From the NCBI GenBank assembly GCA_007126095.1, contig SLBZ01000091.1, positions 19,347 to 83,346 of the forward strand: DNA of 64,000 nt, read 5' to 3'. The position numbers were made by a program, and so were the translations under genes. The notes beneath the pieces were generated by a model that worked only from the letters and a program-made list of their open reading frames with translations, searched no databases and was not told the DNA's origin. How positions within the stretch are numbered: the first letter of the stretch is position 1; each line of letters starts with the position of its first letter. Origin of the DNA: Aquisalimonas sp. Its GTDB lineage: Bacteria > Pseudomonadota > Gammaproteobacteria > Nitrococcales > Aquisalimonadaceae. This document shows positions 26,850 to 44,808 of the stretch, in pieces.

Positions 26850-26860
26850 TTGGCCGACCA

Positions 26861-26888
26861 TGGCCGCGGGGCGTGTTCCCCGCGGCCA
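26861..26888 (+). terminator. Perfect 11-bp hairpin between phaA and phaR
   Basis: Arms TGGCCGCGGGG and CCCCGCGGCCA (26861-26871 and 26878-26888) enclose CGTGTT. It starts 11 bp after the phaA stop and ends 21 bp before the phaR ATG. There is no T-run. It may act as a partial terminator or mRNA stabiliser, keeping the repressor below the thiolase level. Confidence 0.5.
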
Positions 26889-26909
26889 AGCCCGAGGTTG
26901 ATTCCGATA

Positions 26910-27449
26910 ATGACTAACGACGACGTTCGCATCATCAAAAAGTATCCGAACCGGCGTCTTTATGACACGGCTATCAGCAGCTACATCACTCTGGCCGACG
27001 TCAAGAGGCTGGTGCTCGATGGGGTGGAGTTCCAGGTAGTCGACGCCAAGACCCGGGATGACCTGACCCGGACGATCCTGCTCCAGATCATCAGCGAAGA
27101 AGAAGAGGGTGGTGAGCCCATTTTCAGCAGCGAACTGCTGGCCCAGATCATTCGCTCCTACGGCGGCAACATGCAGAATCTCCTGACCAACTACCTGGAG
27201 AAGAGCATGGATATGTGGTCGGACCAGCAACGGGCGCTGCGTGAGCAGACGCGCGATTTCATGGAAGCGAATCCCATGACCATGCTGACCCAGATGGCGG
27301 AGCGGAATCTGGCCATGTGGCGGCGCATGAGCGGTATGGACAGTGGCAAGGACGACCCGGCCGGCGACAGTGGTGATTCCTCTGATGAGTCGGCGGGGAG
27401 CAAAAGCCCGCGGTCGTCCGGCAAACAGGGGTCAGGTTCCCGCAACTGA
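26910..27449 (+). CDS. phaR: Polyhydroxyalkanoate synthesis repressor PhaR
   Basis: PhaR binds both DNA and PHB granules and represses phasin and other pha genes until polymer is present. The 179-residue protein begins with the diagnostic PHB/PHA accumulation-regulator DNA-binding domain (RIIKKYPNRRLYDTAISSYITL, residues about 7-28). The second conserved domain (IFSSELLAQIIRSYGG...LEKSMDMW) follows, with an Asp/Ser-rich tail. Candidate target dyads are noted at 44615-44625 and 28616-28626. Confidence 0.93.
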   Translation: MTNDDVRIIKKYPNRRLYDTAISSYITLADVKRLVLDGVEFQVVDAKTRDDLTRTILLQIISEEEEGGEPIFSSELLAQIIRSYGGNMQNLLTNYLEKSMDMWSDQQRALREQTRDFMEANPMTMLTQMAERNLAMWRRMSGMDSGKDDPAGDSGDSSDESAGSKSPRSSGKQGSGSRN

Positions 27450-27568: not shown

Positions 27569-27597
27569 TTGACAGGTGATCCACCTGTCTCTATTCT
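27569..27597 (+). promoter_or_regulatory. phaB promoter with internal 19-bp operator-like dyad
   Basis: TTGACA (27569-27574), a 17-bp spacer and TATTCT (27592-27597) make a near-consensus sigma-70 promoter, giving a leader of about 140 nt before phaB. A perfect inverted repeat GACAGGTGATCCACCTGTC (27571-27589) overlaps the -35 box and fills the spacer, where a bound repressor would block RNA polymerase. Confidence 0.75.
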
Positions 27598-27742: not shown

Positions 27743-28489
27743 ATGACGAATCGAGTAGCTCTGGTGACGGGCGGTAATGGTGGTATCGGCACTGAGGTGT
27801 GCAAGTATCTGGCGGCGCTCGGGTATCGCGTGGTCAGTACCTGCGTCAATGCCGAGAAGGAAAACATCCGCGGCTGGCAGGAAGATCTGCAGGCGGAGGG
27901 CCATGACGTTGCGTGGATCGAGTGCGATGTGTCCGATTATGATGCGTGCGGCGCCATGGCGGAGCAGATTCAGGCGGAGCACGGTAACGTGGATGTTCTG
28001 GTGAACCTGGCCGGGATCACGCGGGATGCCTTTATTCACAAGATGGGCAAGGGCGACTGGGACGCTGTGGTGAACGTCAATCTAAACAGCGCCTTCAACG
28101 TCACGCGTCATCTCATCGACGGCATGCGTGAGCGTGGCTTTGGCCGTGTGGTGAACATCTCGTCCGTGAACGGTCAGACGGGTCAGTTCGGCCAGACGAA
28201 CTACTCCGCCGCCAAGGCTGGTCTGCACGGCTTCACCATGGCGCTTGCGAAGGAGGGCGCCCGAAAGGGTATCACGGCCAATACTGTATCCCCCGGCTAC
28301 ATCGATACGTCCATGACGGCCGCCATCCCGCAGGAGGTGCGCGACCAGATCATCGCCCAGGTGCCGGCAGGCCGCATGGGGCGCCCGGATGAGATCGCAC
28401 GCGTGGTGGCTTTTCTGGCAGCCGATGACTCGGAGTACATCAACGGTGCGAATATTCCGGTCAACGGCGCGCTGTTCACCAGTTTCTGA
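27743..28489 (+). CDS. phaB: Acetoacetyl-CoA reductase
   Basis: PhaB reduces acetoacetyl-CoA to (R)-3-hydroxybutyryl-CoA with NADPH, the second step of PHB synthesis. The 248-residue short-chain dehydrogenase has the nucleotide motif GGNGGIG (10-16), VNLAG (88-91) where most SDRs have NNAG, and S140, Y154 and K158 in the catalytic triad (YSAAK). PhaB-type PGYIDTSM is present. A strong promoter of its own lies upstream. The PHB synthase (phaC/phaE) is not in the window. Confidence 0.93.
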   Translation: MTNRVALVTGGNGGIGTEVCKYLAALGYRVVSTCVNAEKENIRGWQEDLQAEGHDVAWIECDVSDYDACGAMAEQIQAEHGNVDVLVNLAGITRDAFIHKMGKGDWDAVVNVNLNSAFNVTRHLIDGMRERGFGRVVNISSVNGQTGQFGQTNYSAAKAGLHGFTMALAKEGARKGITANTVSPGYIDTSMTAAIPQEVRDQIIAQVPAGRMGRPDEIARVVAFLAADDSEYINGANIPVNGALFTSF

Positions 28490-28586: not shown

Positions 28587-28615
28587 TTGACAGACAGATT
28601 GGTCTTGGTTAAAAT
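28587..28615 (+). promoter_or_regulatory. Sigma-70 promoter of the intergenic small RNA
   Basis: TTGACA (28587-28592), exactly 17 bp, then TAAAAT (28610-28615): a full consensus -35 and five of six -10 bases. The predicted start is about 28622. A TGCTGCACAGCA dyad (28615-28626) spans the start and resembles the CTGC-N3-GCAG element reported for PhaR. Confidence 0.75.
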
Positions 28616-28662
28616 GCTGCACAGCAACATCGGGAGAGCAAAAAATTGGGAGCTCCCGAAAG

Positions 28663-28746
28663 ATGCTCCCAGATCTGCGCTCTTCTTGTTCTGATTTAAC
28701 GGGTTTTGTGGTTGTCAGGCCTCGCCAGCGAGACCGGAGCGCTTAA
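28663..28746 (+). CDS. Possible 27-codon small ORF inside the candidate small RNA
   Basis: ATG at 28663 has GGGAG ten bases upstream, and the frame runs 27 codons to TAA. The peptide is Arg/Ser-rich with no recognisable family. The Shine-Dalgarno lies in a stem that could hide it. A second ATG at 28614 overlaps the promoter -10 box and cannot be used from that promoter. Support is weak. Confidence 0.15.
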   Translation: MLPDLRSSCSDLTGFVVVRPRQRDRSA

Positions 28747-28764
28747 CCAGCTGAATTACCCGGT
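28698..28764 (-). pseudogene. tRNA-like remnant opposite the candidate small RNA
   Basis: Minus strand from 28764: ACCGGGTAATTCAGCTGG resembles a tRNA acceptor strand and D arm (compare GTAGCTCAGCTGGTTAGAGCG). The sequence near 28698-28704 can pair with the acceptor strand at six of seven positions. The D stem is broken, the anticodon loop is irregular and there is no T arm (no GTTCGA), so it cannot be a working tRNA. Chance resemblance is possible. Confidence 0.25.
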
Positions 28765-28789
28765 TCTAGGACCGGTCTGCTTCTCCTCC

Positions 28790-28841
28790 AGGCGACTCCC
28801 AAGTCGCCTTTTCCGCCCCCTCGCTCGAGGGGGTTTTTTTT
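28790..28841 (+). terminator. Tandem intrinsic terminators
   Basis: First: AGGCGACT-CCCA-AGTCGCCT followed by TTT (28790-28812). Second: CCCCCTC-GCTC-GAGGGGG directly followed by eight T (28816-28841). The second is the strongest rightward intrinsic terminator in the window. Nothing but the candidate small RNA, or read-through from phaB 300 bp upstream, could need it. Confidence 0.9.
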
Positions 28842-29008
28842 GTCCATAACCTGCTGAAGACTGATTCAGTCTTCTGGACTCGTTGGATCTCATTGTAGCG
28901 CGGCAGTGTTGTCTGGCAACCATTTTTGTTGGTGCGTCGCAACAGTGTGTCCGGATGGGAACAGGTTGTCCGCAGATCGTGCCGCCGGTCTGTGCTGTCG
29001 GCAAGACA

Positions 29009-30460
29009 CTACCGGCGCTCTCGCTCCAGTTCCCGCTGGATGTCCTGGCGCCGGGACACGGCGCGGGAGCGGTCATTGATGTCCGCGTCGCTGGCGTTGG
29101 CCACCCGGTCGAGCTGATCCAGTGCCAGCGGGAGGTTGCCGCTGAGGTAGTAGTGCTCGCCCATGGCCAGCATGGCTTCATGGTCCAGCCCCGCGGCGCT
29201 GGCGGCTTCGGCGTGGAGCCGGTGCAGGTGGGCATCGCCCCCCTGGCGCTGAATCTGTCTCCGAACCAGTTGCCGGGCGTCCATCGGGCGGTCCAGCCGC
29301 AGCAGCGTGCGGGCGGTGTGCAGACTCAGGGTGTAGCTGCCCGGGAAGAGATCGAGCCCGAGCTCCAGGCTCTCCAGGGCCGATTCCAGATTGCCCTGTT
29401 CCGAATGAATCCGCGCCAGCGCCACCAGGTAGGCGGTGCGCTCGCTGTCCTCAGCCATCAGCGTCTCCAGCGCCTCCCTCGCTTCGTCGAGCTGATCGTC
29501 CTCGATCTTCGCGAGCGCCAGGCCGAACCGTGTGGCGAAACGGCCGTTATCGCTCTCGGCGCCGTTGTCCAGCTCGGCCTCGAAGTGGCGAATGGCGTCC
29601 CGGGGTTCGTTGGCCCGCTGCACCAGAAGCCGGGCCCGGATCAGGCCGTATGTGGGGCTCTCGTCCGGTGACCCGTTACTGTAACTGCGTGCCCGCGAGC
29701 GCGACTCCGCGATGCGGGATTCGGTGACCGGGTGGGTGCTCAGAAACTCGGGCGGGCGCTGCTGATGCCGGGTAGCCTCGGCCAGACGTTCGAAAAACCG
29801 GGGCATGCCTTCCGGGTCCAGGCCCGCATCCGCAAGAATGCGAATGCCGATGTTGTCGGCCTCGCGCTCGTGTGCGCGGCTGTAGTTCAGCTGCTCCTGG
29901 ATGGATCCGGCCATGCCGCCGATGGCCGCCGCGCTGCCGAGGTCGGCATCCTGCGTCCCCATGAGAATGGCCGCGAGGATGATGCCGAGCGTCTGCAGGC
30001 CGCCGCCGCGGCTGTCGTCCAGCCGGCGCGCGATGTGCCGCTGGCTGACGTGCGCGATTTCGTGGGCCATGACCGCCGCCAGTTCGCTCTCCGACTGCGT
30101 CCGCTCGATCAGACCGCGATTGATGCCGATATACCCCCCGGGCATGGCAAAGGCGTTGATGGCGGGGCTGTCCACCACGAAGAACTCGTAGGCCATGTCC
30201 GGGGTGTTGGCGTGGGAGACGAGGCGCTGTCCCAGGTCCTGAATGTACTCCCGGAGCTCCGGATCGTCGGTCATGGGGACGCGCAATCGCACCTGCCGGA
30301 TCAGCTGCTGGCCCATGCGCTGCTCCTCGGCCACCGACAGCGTCTGGCTCGCGGGGCTGCCCAGGTCGGGCAGGCGCAGTGGGTCGTCCGCCACGGCCAT
30401 GGCGGTGGCAAAGGCCAGCAGAACGGCCAGCAGGAACGTCAGGACTCGGTGCAAGGGCAC
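29009..30460 (-). CDS. bepA: Periplasmic M48 metallopeptidase / TPR chaperone BepA
   Basis: BepA assists LptD and BamA assembly and degrades misfolded outer-membrane proteins. GTG 30460 gives 483 residues (E. coli has 487) with a clean signal peptide (about 1-24) and GGAG upstream; the frame stays open to 30568 with alternative GTG 30502. The zinc site is H133-E134-x2-H137 (HEIAH) with E198 in the EREAD segment. TPR repeats occupy about 285-470. Between it and the small RNA terminator is a GAAGACTG-ATT-CAGTCTTC hairpin (28856-28874). Confidence 0.9.
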   Translation of the reverse strand: MPLHRVLTFLLAVLLAFATAMAVADDPLRLPDLGSPASQTLSVAEEQRMGQQLIRQVRLRVPMTDDPELREYIQDLGQRLVSHANTPDMAYEFFVVDSPAINAFAMPGGYIGINRGLIERTQSESELAAVMAHEIAHVSQRHIARRLDDSRGGGLQTLGIILAAILMGTQDADLGSAAAIGGMAGSIQEQLNYSRAHEREADNIGIRILADAGLDPEGMPRFFERLAEATRHQQRPPEFLSTHPVTESRIAESRSRARSYSNGSPDESPTYGLIRARLLVQRANEPRDAIRHFEAELDNGAESDNGRFATRFGLALAKIEDDQLDEAREALETLMAEDSERTAYLVALARIHSEQGNLESALESLELGLDLFPGSYTLSLHTARTLLRLDRPMDARQLVRRQIQRQGGDAHLHRLHAEAASAAGLDHEAMLAMGEHYYLSGNLPLALDQLDRVANASDADINDRSRAVSRRQDIQRELERERR

Positions 30461-44110: not shown

Positions 44111-44572
44111 TCAGGCATTCTTCTTGGCGCTGGAGCTGCTGGAACTCGAGCCGGTGCCCGCGTCCTTGCCGGCGCTGGCTGAGGCGTTCTCAACAGCGCT
44201 GACAGCCTGTTTGGTCTGCTGCTTGGCCTGCTCGGATGCCGCAGTGACGCCGTCCTGAGCCAGCTTCTGCAGCTGCTCGGCAAAGCCGCGGTTGATCTTG
44301 ACGAACTCGTTCATGTCCGCCGTCACTTTCTCGCCGAGGGACTTGGCGACCTCGGTCTGCTTCGTCACGTACGCCTGCAGACTCTGCGGGTCGTTGACGT
44401 CTTTCAGTGCGCGCAGGTTGTCGATGCCCAGCTCGGAATAGTGTTTCACCGCTTCCATCTGGAAATCGGTGATGCGGGCAACGTGGTCGAGCATGGTGCT
44501 CTGCGCCTTGCGCACGGGGTTCAGCATCTGCTCAAACTGTGTGTTGGTTTTCTCGAACATCTCGGTATACAT
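44111..44572 (-). CDS. Phasin family protein (PHB granule-associated)
   Basis: This phasin coats polyhydroxybutyrate granules. The 153-residue protein starts MYTEMFEKTNTQFEQMLNPV. Its helical phasin_2-type core runs from about 5 to 120 (ITDFQMEAVKHYSELGIDNLRALKDVNDPQ is typical), followed by an Ala/Gln-rich helix and a low-complexity Ser-rich tail. ATG 44572 has AGGAGG upstream; the open frame extends to 44635 without a site. A good promoter with a PhaR-type dyad lies upstream and a strong terminator downstream, so it is monocistronic. Confidence 0.9.
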   Translation of the reverse strand: MYTEMFEKTNTQFEQMLNPVRKAQSTMLDHVARITDFQMEAVKHYSELGIDNLRALKDVNDPQSLQAYVTKQTEVAKSLGEKVTADMNEFVKINRGFAEQLQKLAQDGVTAASEQAKQQTKQAVSAVENASASAGKDAGTGSSSSSSSAKKNA

Positions 44573-44614
44573 ACAAGGTGACCTCCTCTGTGATGAAAGA
44601 GCGTCCCACTCTTT

Positions 44615-44652
44615 CTGCACTGCAGCGTAGTTCACGGATTGGTGCGCTGCAA
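44615..44652 (-). promoter_or_regulatory. Phasin promoter with PhaR-type operator
   Basis: On the minus strand TTGCAG (44652-44647), 17 bp, TACGCT (44629-44624), with an A/T-rich UP-like stretch further upstream (about 44660-44680). CTGC-AGT-GCAG (44625-44615) overlaps the end of the -10 box and the expected start site. It matches the CTGC-N3/4-GCAG element reported for PhaR in Paracoccus and Rhodobacter, the ideal place for repression. Confidence 0.65.
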
Positions 44653-44808
44653 CGTCTAGTTTTTATTTTTTCGTCATAAGGTTATGCGTCCTGTTTATGG
44701 TGGCGTCACCGCTTGTGACAGGAATGGTGAAACGCTCCCTCTCGCTGTCGCCGACGCCTTCGGTATACTTGCCGTCGCTCGACCACGTCCACCGCTACGG
44801 GAGCAGTC

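Follow-up and report, generated by a model that had tools for sequence, protein, structure and literature searches.

MmgR, a small RNA that is controlled by PhaR and tunes PHB, belongs to the alphaproteobacterial alphaR8 family (PMC12559287; PMC12542648). According to the available excerpts of these two papers, mmgR is repressed by PhaR, which in S. meliloti binds its promoter (PMC12542648), the family shares a conserved 10-mer, UUUCCUCCCU (PMC12559287), and CrfA, a sponge RNA rich in G and A, counteracts the siblings found in Caulobacter (PMC12559287; PMC12542648). For Ralstonia, the excerpted text of PMC12849132 gives YTKNTGCRNYGCANMAR as the PhaR consensus, with up to three mismatches allowed, and places the PhaR sites of phaP1 directly upstream of the -35 element and around the start site.

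Here we describe a locus from a gammaproteobacterial order which we read, with a probability of about 60%, as encoding a PHB-responsive riboregulator that would consist of a PhaR-controlled sense RNA and an antisense partner. The window (the whole stretch of DNA that was analysed, 64,000 nt) is part of contig C21 of a 3.3-Mb draft genome and carries, in this order, phaA, phaR, phaB, the candidate RNA and, on the opposite strand, an M48 peptidase gene. The PHB-responsive repressor is encoded by phaR (26850..27449, plus strand; PHB_acc_N and PHB_acc, Pfam PF07879, 1.1e-29, and PF05233, 1.4e-15), the true start of which probably lies inside this open reading frame; phaB (27743..28489, plus strand), an acetoacetyl-CoA reductase of the short-chain dehydrogenase type (Pfam adh_short, 9.9e-59), was named from its place in the pha cluster, and the phaR-phaB order recurs in relatives. 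Upstream of phaB there is a second promoter-like site, TTGACA-17-TATTCT (27569-27597), overlapping a palindrome, GACAGGTGATCCACCTGTC, that is not a PhaR-type box. The flank downstream of the candidate (28842-29009) is M48 peptidase in the window's genome and differs in loci of several other genera (L008, L014, L016), where a gene ends which we take, by eye, to be phaC-like (PGGHLG motif).

The predicted small RNA after phaB

The initial annotation had placed a small RNA directly after phaB, framed by a sigma-70 promoter and two tandem terminators. The promoter (TTGACA-17-TAAAAT; 28587..28615, plus strand, with the -35 at 28587-28592 and the -10 at 28610-28615) is borne out: it matches the consensus at 11 of 12 positions and its spacing is conserved, the -35 lying 25-29 bp before the operator box1 (see below) in 28 of the 37 loci that bear this box, and promoter-like sites in 2.8 kb numbered three against a mean of 0.4 in shuffles. 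Of the two terminators the last was retained, a hairpin (28815-28834) with eight T up to 28841 (28815..28841, plus strand); the sense terminator rule is passed by all 13 f1 loci with the element and by 10 of 12 f5 loci. Because the same scan yielded three terminator-like sites where 1.9 were expected, this terminator by itself is not beyond chance. The other supposed terminator, a hairpin at 28790-28809 with three further T, is missing from the list of the scan and is better described as a conserved, covarying hairpin. Between the promoter and the T8 there are indeed about 220 nt devoid of a convincing gene: a small protein was judged unlikely by eye, the distance from box1 to the seed (see below) varying from ~40 to 180 nt, and gaps in the alignment are not multiples of three. 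The sense RNA is predicted to span 28621..28841 (plus strand, ~220 nt), with its start placed from the position of the -10, on the combined ground of promoter, terminator, conservation and covariation.

The fold of 28622-28841 reaches -84.8 kcal/mol (z -2.57). An alignment of 11 sequences from f1 loci has four helices, with pairing in 97.3% of their cells. A long-range helix (28677..28742, plus strand) joins GCGCTC (28677-28682) with GAGCGC (28737-28742), two of its pairs changing from G-C to A-U in one sequence each, and in the hairpin AGGCGACU-CCCA-AGUCGCCU (28790..28809, plus strand) one pair changes from A-U to G-C in 3 of the 11 sequences and one from A-U to U-A in 4. Double changes occupy 9 cells, where shuffles give 2.5 (none of 500 comes as high) and slid controls at most one, numbers that are not fully independent evidence, since the tested structure was derived from the same alignment and the sequences are related; the count of further pair types (9 against 9.5 in shuffles) is not above chance. 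The hairpin follows a CU-rich anti-Shine-Dalgarno stretch, the putative seed CUUCUCCUCC (28780..28789, plus strand), which is predicted to be exposed: over 22 loci its accessibility has a mean percentile of 0.91 among 8-mers, against 0.76 in the window itself, where the seed is 0.56 unpaired.

Of 40 genomes searched at the DNA level, 16 gave matches, the own genome among them. With a covariance model of the 3' module, built from 23 sequences of 16 genomes, 30 of the 54 genomes of the order were matched, namely the 16 training genomes and 14 others, and one of the latter matches (G017, L104) lies elsewhere and is unlike the element. The region after phaB was read in 42 genomes, and a table was compiled of 44 loci from 44 of the 54 genomes, which includes G004 and a partial locus truncated by a contig end (G002) and enters G036, G043 and G044 by their relocated loci in place of their empty phaB sites. 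Features of the element are present in 41 of the 44 tabulated loci, directly after phaB in 36 and elsewhere in the three relocated ones; it is absent from G016 and G046 despite sequence after phaB, and in the third miss (G009) the contig ends within the promoter. The G004 element (L048, G004:C148) comes after phaR, with phaB found neither between them nor nearby. The table rules find no sense promoter in 11 loci (G014 of f2; G015, G017 and G023 of f3; G018, G028, G030, G032, G038, G042 and G051 of f4), so that these may not transcribe the sense RNA on its own; in G006 (f1) the TTGACA is kept and box1 is absent. The initial annotation had staked its proposal on conservation of promoter and terminators, with covariation, in relatives, and with the element in 41 of 44 loci and 9 double changes against 2.5 this part of it stands. 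As a prediction, a plus-strand small RNA after phaB is well supported by promoter and terminator conservation, covariation and synteny.

A strict pattern, run against a named genome collection from which close relations of the window may be absent, hit six records, namely Methylonatrum kenyense, which has the 3' module, and five MAGs of the Ectothiorhodospiraceae. Among 369 sampled genomes of the class, model R1 picked out 21 at 1e-4, namely the own genome and 20 others whose matches are weak (best 5.8e-7). Eleven loci outside the order were inspected (L157-L167; the slices of L160, L163 and L166 missed the match) and none was accepted as a homologue; L161 and L162 have phaR and phaB nearby but follow another open reading frame and carry no box. 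Three of the inspected loci, from other families of the class (L157, L158, L165), show a short segment led by TTGACA that contains CU-rich sequence (TCTCCTCC in the L157/L165 type, TCTCCCCCC in L158), a hairpin and a T8 terminator, and neither a PhaR-type box nor phaB in the 3-kb locus.

The opposite strand

A convergent promoter, TTGCCA-16-TACAAT (28892..28919, minus strand), came out of the promoter scan and reads into the small RNA. Its -10 lies exactly 38 bp from box2, the second PhaR-type operator, in 23 of 31 box2 loci, and no other offset between 20 and 60 is found in more than three loci; under a looser rule, three more f4 loci have a weaker minus-strand -10 at 39 bp. A putative intrinsic terminator on the same strand (28640..28670, minus strand) was read by eye, being absent from the terminator scan list, and consists of a GGGAGC hairpin (28670-28648), AA and six T (28645-28640). 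The pairing of GGGAGC (28648-28653) with GCTCCC (28665-28670), with A6 ahead, is kept in relatives, and an A-run of at least five, 24-25 nt after box1, is present in 21 of the 22 loci with box1 and a minus promoter (at 38 or 39 bp) and in only 5 of the 15 with box1 and no minus promoter. The GGGAG/CTCCC blocks from which the initial annotation had derived competing folds are present, but instead of competing folds they are best explained as the terminator of a putative antisense RNA. This RNA (28639..28885, minus strand, ~246 nt) is predicted from the convergent promoter and the opposite-strand terminator, both of its ends being inferred, and would overlap the sense RNA except for the first ~18 nt of the latter. 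The locus seems to carry an overlapping pair of predicted sense and antisense RNAs. A regulatory RNA beside phaB, as initially proposed, is thus supported as a prediction for the plus strand, but its convergent antisense half had been overlooked, along with the PhaR-type operators, the anti-Shine-Dalgarno stretch and the sibling copies.

Both promoters occur in 16 loci of the table (11 f1 loci and G020, G034, G036, G043 and G044), and in four of the five genomes of the window's genus, the fifth locus being cut by a contig end. Lineages outside this genus have mainly kept one promoter: in f5 the sense promoter is present at each of the 12 loci and, by the rules of the table, the minus promoter at none. 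On separate reading, G022 (f5) shows a minus-strand -10/-35 with an imperfect box, and in G014 (f2) a minus promoter lies at a distance of 38 bp from a box that is likewise imperfect, which fails the table rules.

This distribution bears on an alternative that we consider unlikely, namely that regulation rests mainly with the antisense RNA, to which the sense transcript was added later; where the sense promoter is missing, a box2-driven minus-strand RNA ending at the GGGAG hairpin would act on the 3' end of phaB or sponge other CU-rich small RNAs. Such a history could explain why the minus promoter and the terminator A-run are kept in f3 and f4 genomes that have no TTGACA before box1, why the A-run tracks the minus promoter, and why folding energy expresses no preference for the plus strand (36 loci; mean z -2.28 for plus and -2.41 for minus). 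It sits badly with the f5 loci, in which the sense promoter is universal and the sense terminator common, and with the sibling copies L049, L050 and L070, which keep the sense 3' module and have no box2 (L063 has a single loose TGC-N3-GCA downstream, not counted as box2). Wobble pairs also favour the plus strand in the hairpins beside the seed (100 G-U against 33 A-C) but not in the first hairpin (25 against 38), a count that is confounded by A/T runs and composition and to which the crude hairpin finder may contribute.

It is quite improbable that the element belongs to the 3'-UTR of a pha messenger, as a stability element or a small RNA processed from that 3'-UTR, rather than being a gene of its own: in three f4 genomes (G018, G030, G051) it does start at most ~25 nt from the phaB stop with no visible promoter, but 11 of 11 f1 loci with box1 and 12 of 12 f5 loci have a TTGACA-like -35 at 25-29 bp ahead of box1, and the whole element, promoter included, lies away from phaB in G036, G043 and G044.

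PhaR-type operators and sibling copies

Each of the two predicted promoters is accompanied by a palindrome of the form TGC-N3-GCA. Box1, ATGCTGCACAGCAACAT (28614..28630), overlaps the end of the -10 and the start site of the sense RNA, and box2, TTGGTGCGTCGCAACAG (28929..28945), lies just upstream of the antisense -35. They were scored with a matrix built from 49 phasin-promoter sites of the order, which contains zero sites from small RNA loci and includes the two phaP sites of the window. This phaP (44111..44572, minus strand; Pfam Phasin_2, 2.7e-15 on 44111-44635; start counted from the sequence) encodes a phasin, and its promoter, with two boxes of the PhaR-type motif (44612-44628 and 44639-44655), served as the yardstick for PhaR sites. 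Among all 17-mers of the window, box2 ranks first (score 21.0) and box1 second (18.2), followed in ranks 3 and 4 by the two phaP sites; in a background of 492,511 17-mers, small RNA sites included, the values are 8.3e-5 for box1 and 1.2e-5 for box2. Box1 was found in 37 of the 44 loci (matrix score >13) and box2 in 31 at a looser threshold (>9), five of the latter being f5 loci without minus promoter.

Within 320 nt upstream, TGC-N3-GCA is present in 28 of 30 phasin loci (one per genome, among the matches listed) and at least twice, commonly 27 bp apart, in 18 of the 30 (again among the matches listed), against 21% and 3.3%, respectively, of 20,000 random 320-nt windows; for the phasins of the genus, which are partly the same genes as in the 30-locus set, it lies within 260 nt in 17 of 20. 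Box2 agrees with YTKNTGCRNYGCANMAR at every position and box1 departs from it by three mismatches, one of them central (A for Y), so that both boxes, each near a promoter, stay within the three mismatches allowed for the PhaR regulon. Their positions, one on each strand, are those of the two phaP1 sites of Ralstonia. PhaR was found in 52 of the 54 genomes of the order. Box1 and box2 fit the published PhaR sites and are predicted operators, and the link of the predicted small RNA to PHB is more than one of position, in that both of its promoters have PhaR-type operators.

Further copies of the 3' module are present in the window's own genome (G000:C152, L063), in G003 (a tandem and a distant copy), in G004 (three) and in G022 (one, divergent); a weak match in the own genome (G000:C76) has little beyond the terminator and was not counted as a sibling. 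In G003 two tandem small RNA copies follow phaB (L046 7660-8055), each with its own promoter and box. At the start of the tandem copy stands TGCGGTGCA, a PhaR-type box of canonical form, and PhaR-type boxes are present in L049 and L050 too. L047, L051 and L063 have, across the -10 and start, a TGTACAA-N3-TTGTACA-type palindrome in place of the PhaR-type box, which suggests a different regulator for the same seed, and the siblings may therefore answer different signals; counted by eye, the box2 promoter of L047 and L051 still stands at 38 bp. According to the excerpts of PMC12559287 and PMC12542648, MmgR and SisA-D are likewise siblings whose promoters are unrelated. It is quite unlikely that box1 and box2 serve a regulator other than PhaR and that the RNA is not PHB-responsive. 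In favour of this are the central departure of box1 from the consensus and the different palindrome (of the above type or close to it) in three siblings, and against it stand the same motif in phasin promoters of the same genomes, the canonical box at the same place in the tandem copy of G003, and a PhaR that is encoded two genes away and is nearly universal in the order.

Proposed regulation and comparison with known RNA families

In the PHB-responsive riboregulator that we favour, PhaR would, when there is no PHB, occupy box1 at the sense start site and box2 beside the antisense promoter and repress both, as the position of the sites and the known behaviour of PhaR suggest. PHB granules would draw PhaR away by titration, in the way known from phasin genes, and both RNAs would then be made. 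The ~220-nt sense RNA would present UCUCCUCC, mostly unpaired, between one hairpin and two more, the last of which is the predicted terminator, and might repress mRNAs with strong Shine-Dalgarno sequences, probably with Hfq. Its antisense partner, as an exact complement that includes GGAGGAGAAG, would limit the sense RNA, acting as a cis-encoded sponge or by way of duplex decay or transcription interference. The players exist, since the genome encodes three copies of PhaC, all elsewhere, and one of Hfq. Start regions with GGAGGAGAAG before an ATG number 1 to 18 per genome of the genus. Phasin mRNAs were tested as preferred targets and found no support as such: with a crude choice of start codons in five species, the median for pairing of the start region with the seed was -10.75 kcal/mol for 20 phasins and -12.2 kcal/mol for 159 other genes (p 0.92). 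The phasin start regions of the genus (L168-L187) have a weaker median complementarity to the seed than other genes, and phasin genes of the genus might escape the RNA.

A more ambitious version of this scheme can be offered tentatively, as something possible rather than probable. The locus could be a self-contained switch under the storage polymer, in which PhaR is released from two operators bracketing ~300 bp and two convergent, almost fully overlapping RNAs, an anti-Shine-Dalgarno repressor and its cis sponge, are produced; the balance between the strands would set the feedback of PHB on translation, and lineages would have kept one or both strands.

Neither over the element nor over 20 relative loci did any Rfam model reach its gathering score, which speaks against a known housekeeping RNA, the case that would have refuted the initial annotation. 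As to its suggestion of novelty, no earlier description of the element was found in open-licence PMC papers, among the matches listed; in the available text of PMC8632094, which deals with structured RNAs of 26 genomes, the Spiribacter motif described is that of proX and differs from the element, and in that of a paper on a Spiribacter genome (PMC3832224) small RNAs come up for another organism only. At a relaxed threshold the nearest models were anti-hemB, the Betaproteobacteria toxic small RNA and mmgR, all well below their cut-offs. The best resemblance is to anti-hemB of Burkholderia (RF02837; 26.9 bits, E 0.00018, cut-off 49.5), with 8 matches in 7 of the 20 relative loci (26.0-28.7 bits) and 3 weaker ones, none above the cut-off. 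It shares the core GCUUCUCCUCC, followed by a hairpin and a T-rich terminator, but its model is without the long 5' part, the PhaR-type boxes and the antisense partner of the element. We know of no PhaR control for the Betaproteobacteria toxic small RNA (RF02278), the model of which gave 19.0 bits in the window and 25.6 in the best relative (cut-off 50). With its double hairpin and unpaired CU-rich stretch, as given in the excerpt of PMC5688073, it resembles the element.

The comparison with the alphaR8/MmgR family cuts both ways. The exposed anti-Shine-Dalgarno stretch UCUCCUCC of the predicted sense RNA is like that of MmgR of Sinorhizobium; the alphaR8 architecture, an unpaired CU-rich core after a hairpin and then an intrinsic terminator, recurs in the predicted structure, with an extra hairpin between core and terminator; and a PhaR-type box, a predicted operator, lies at the start site, where PhaR might repress the promoter as it does that of mmgR. 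Against membership, the alphaR8/MmgR model (RF00519, 'suhB') scored 18.8 bits in the window and at best 24.1 in the 20 relative loci (cut-off 41), the window has CUUCUCCUCC where the family has its conserved 10-mer, and the neighbours are phaB and an M48 peptidase gene, not the N-formylglutamate amidohydrolase gene beside which most one-copy species carry the RNA. MmgR is, moreover, 77 nt long in the excerpt of PMC8401924, against ~220 nt predicted here, and the complementary RNA is predicted from the opposite strand of the same DNA, unlike in the CrfA arrangement. The operators, start sites and seed given here are concrete, and of relevance to bioplastic production. If the reading is true, a separate PhaR-linked RNA in a gammaproteobacterial order would suggest more than one origin for the linkage between the PHB sensor and anti-Shine-Dalgarno RNAs; it would also suggest that a regulator and its sponge can be encoded by the two strands of one stretch of DNA, under a common repressor. 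On inference, the system would work like MmgR with its sponge, while standing outside the MmgR family by score, 10-mer and location.
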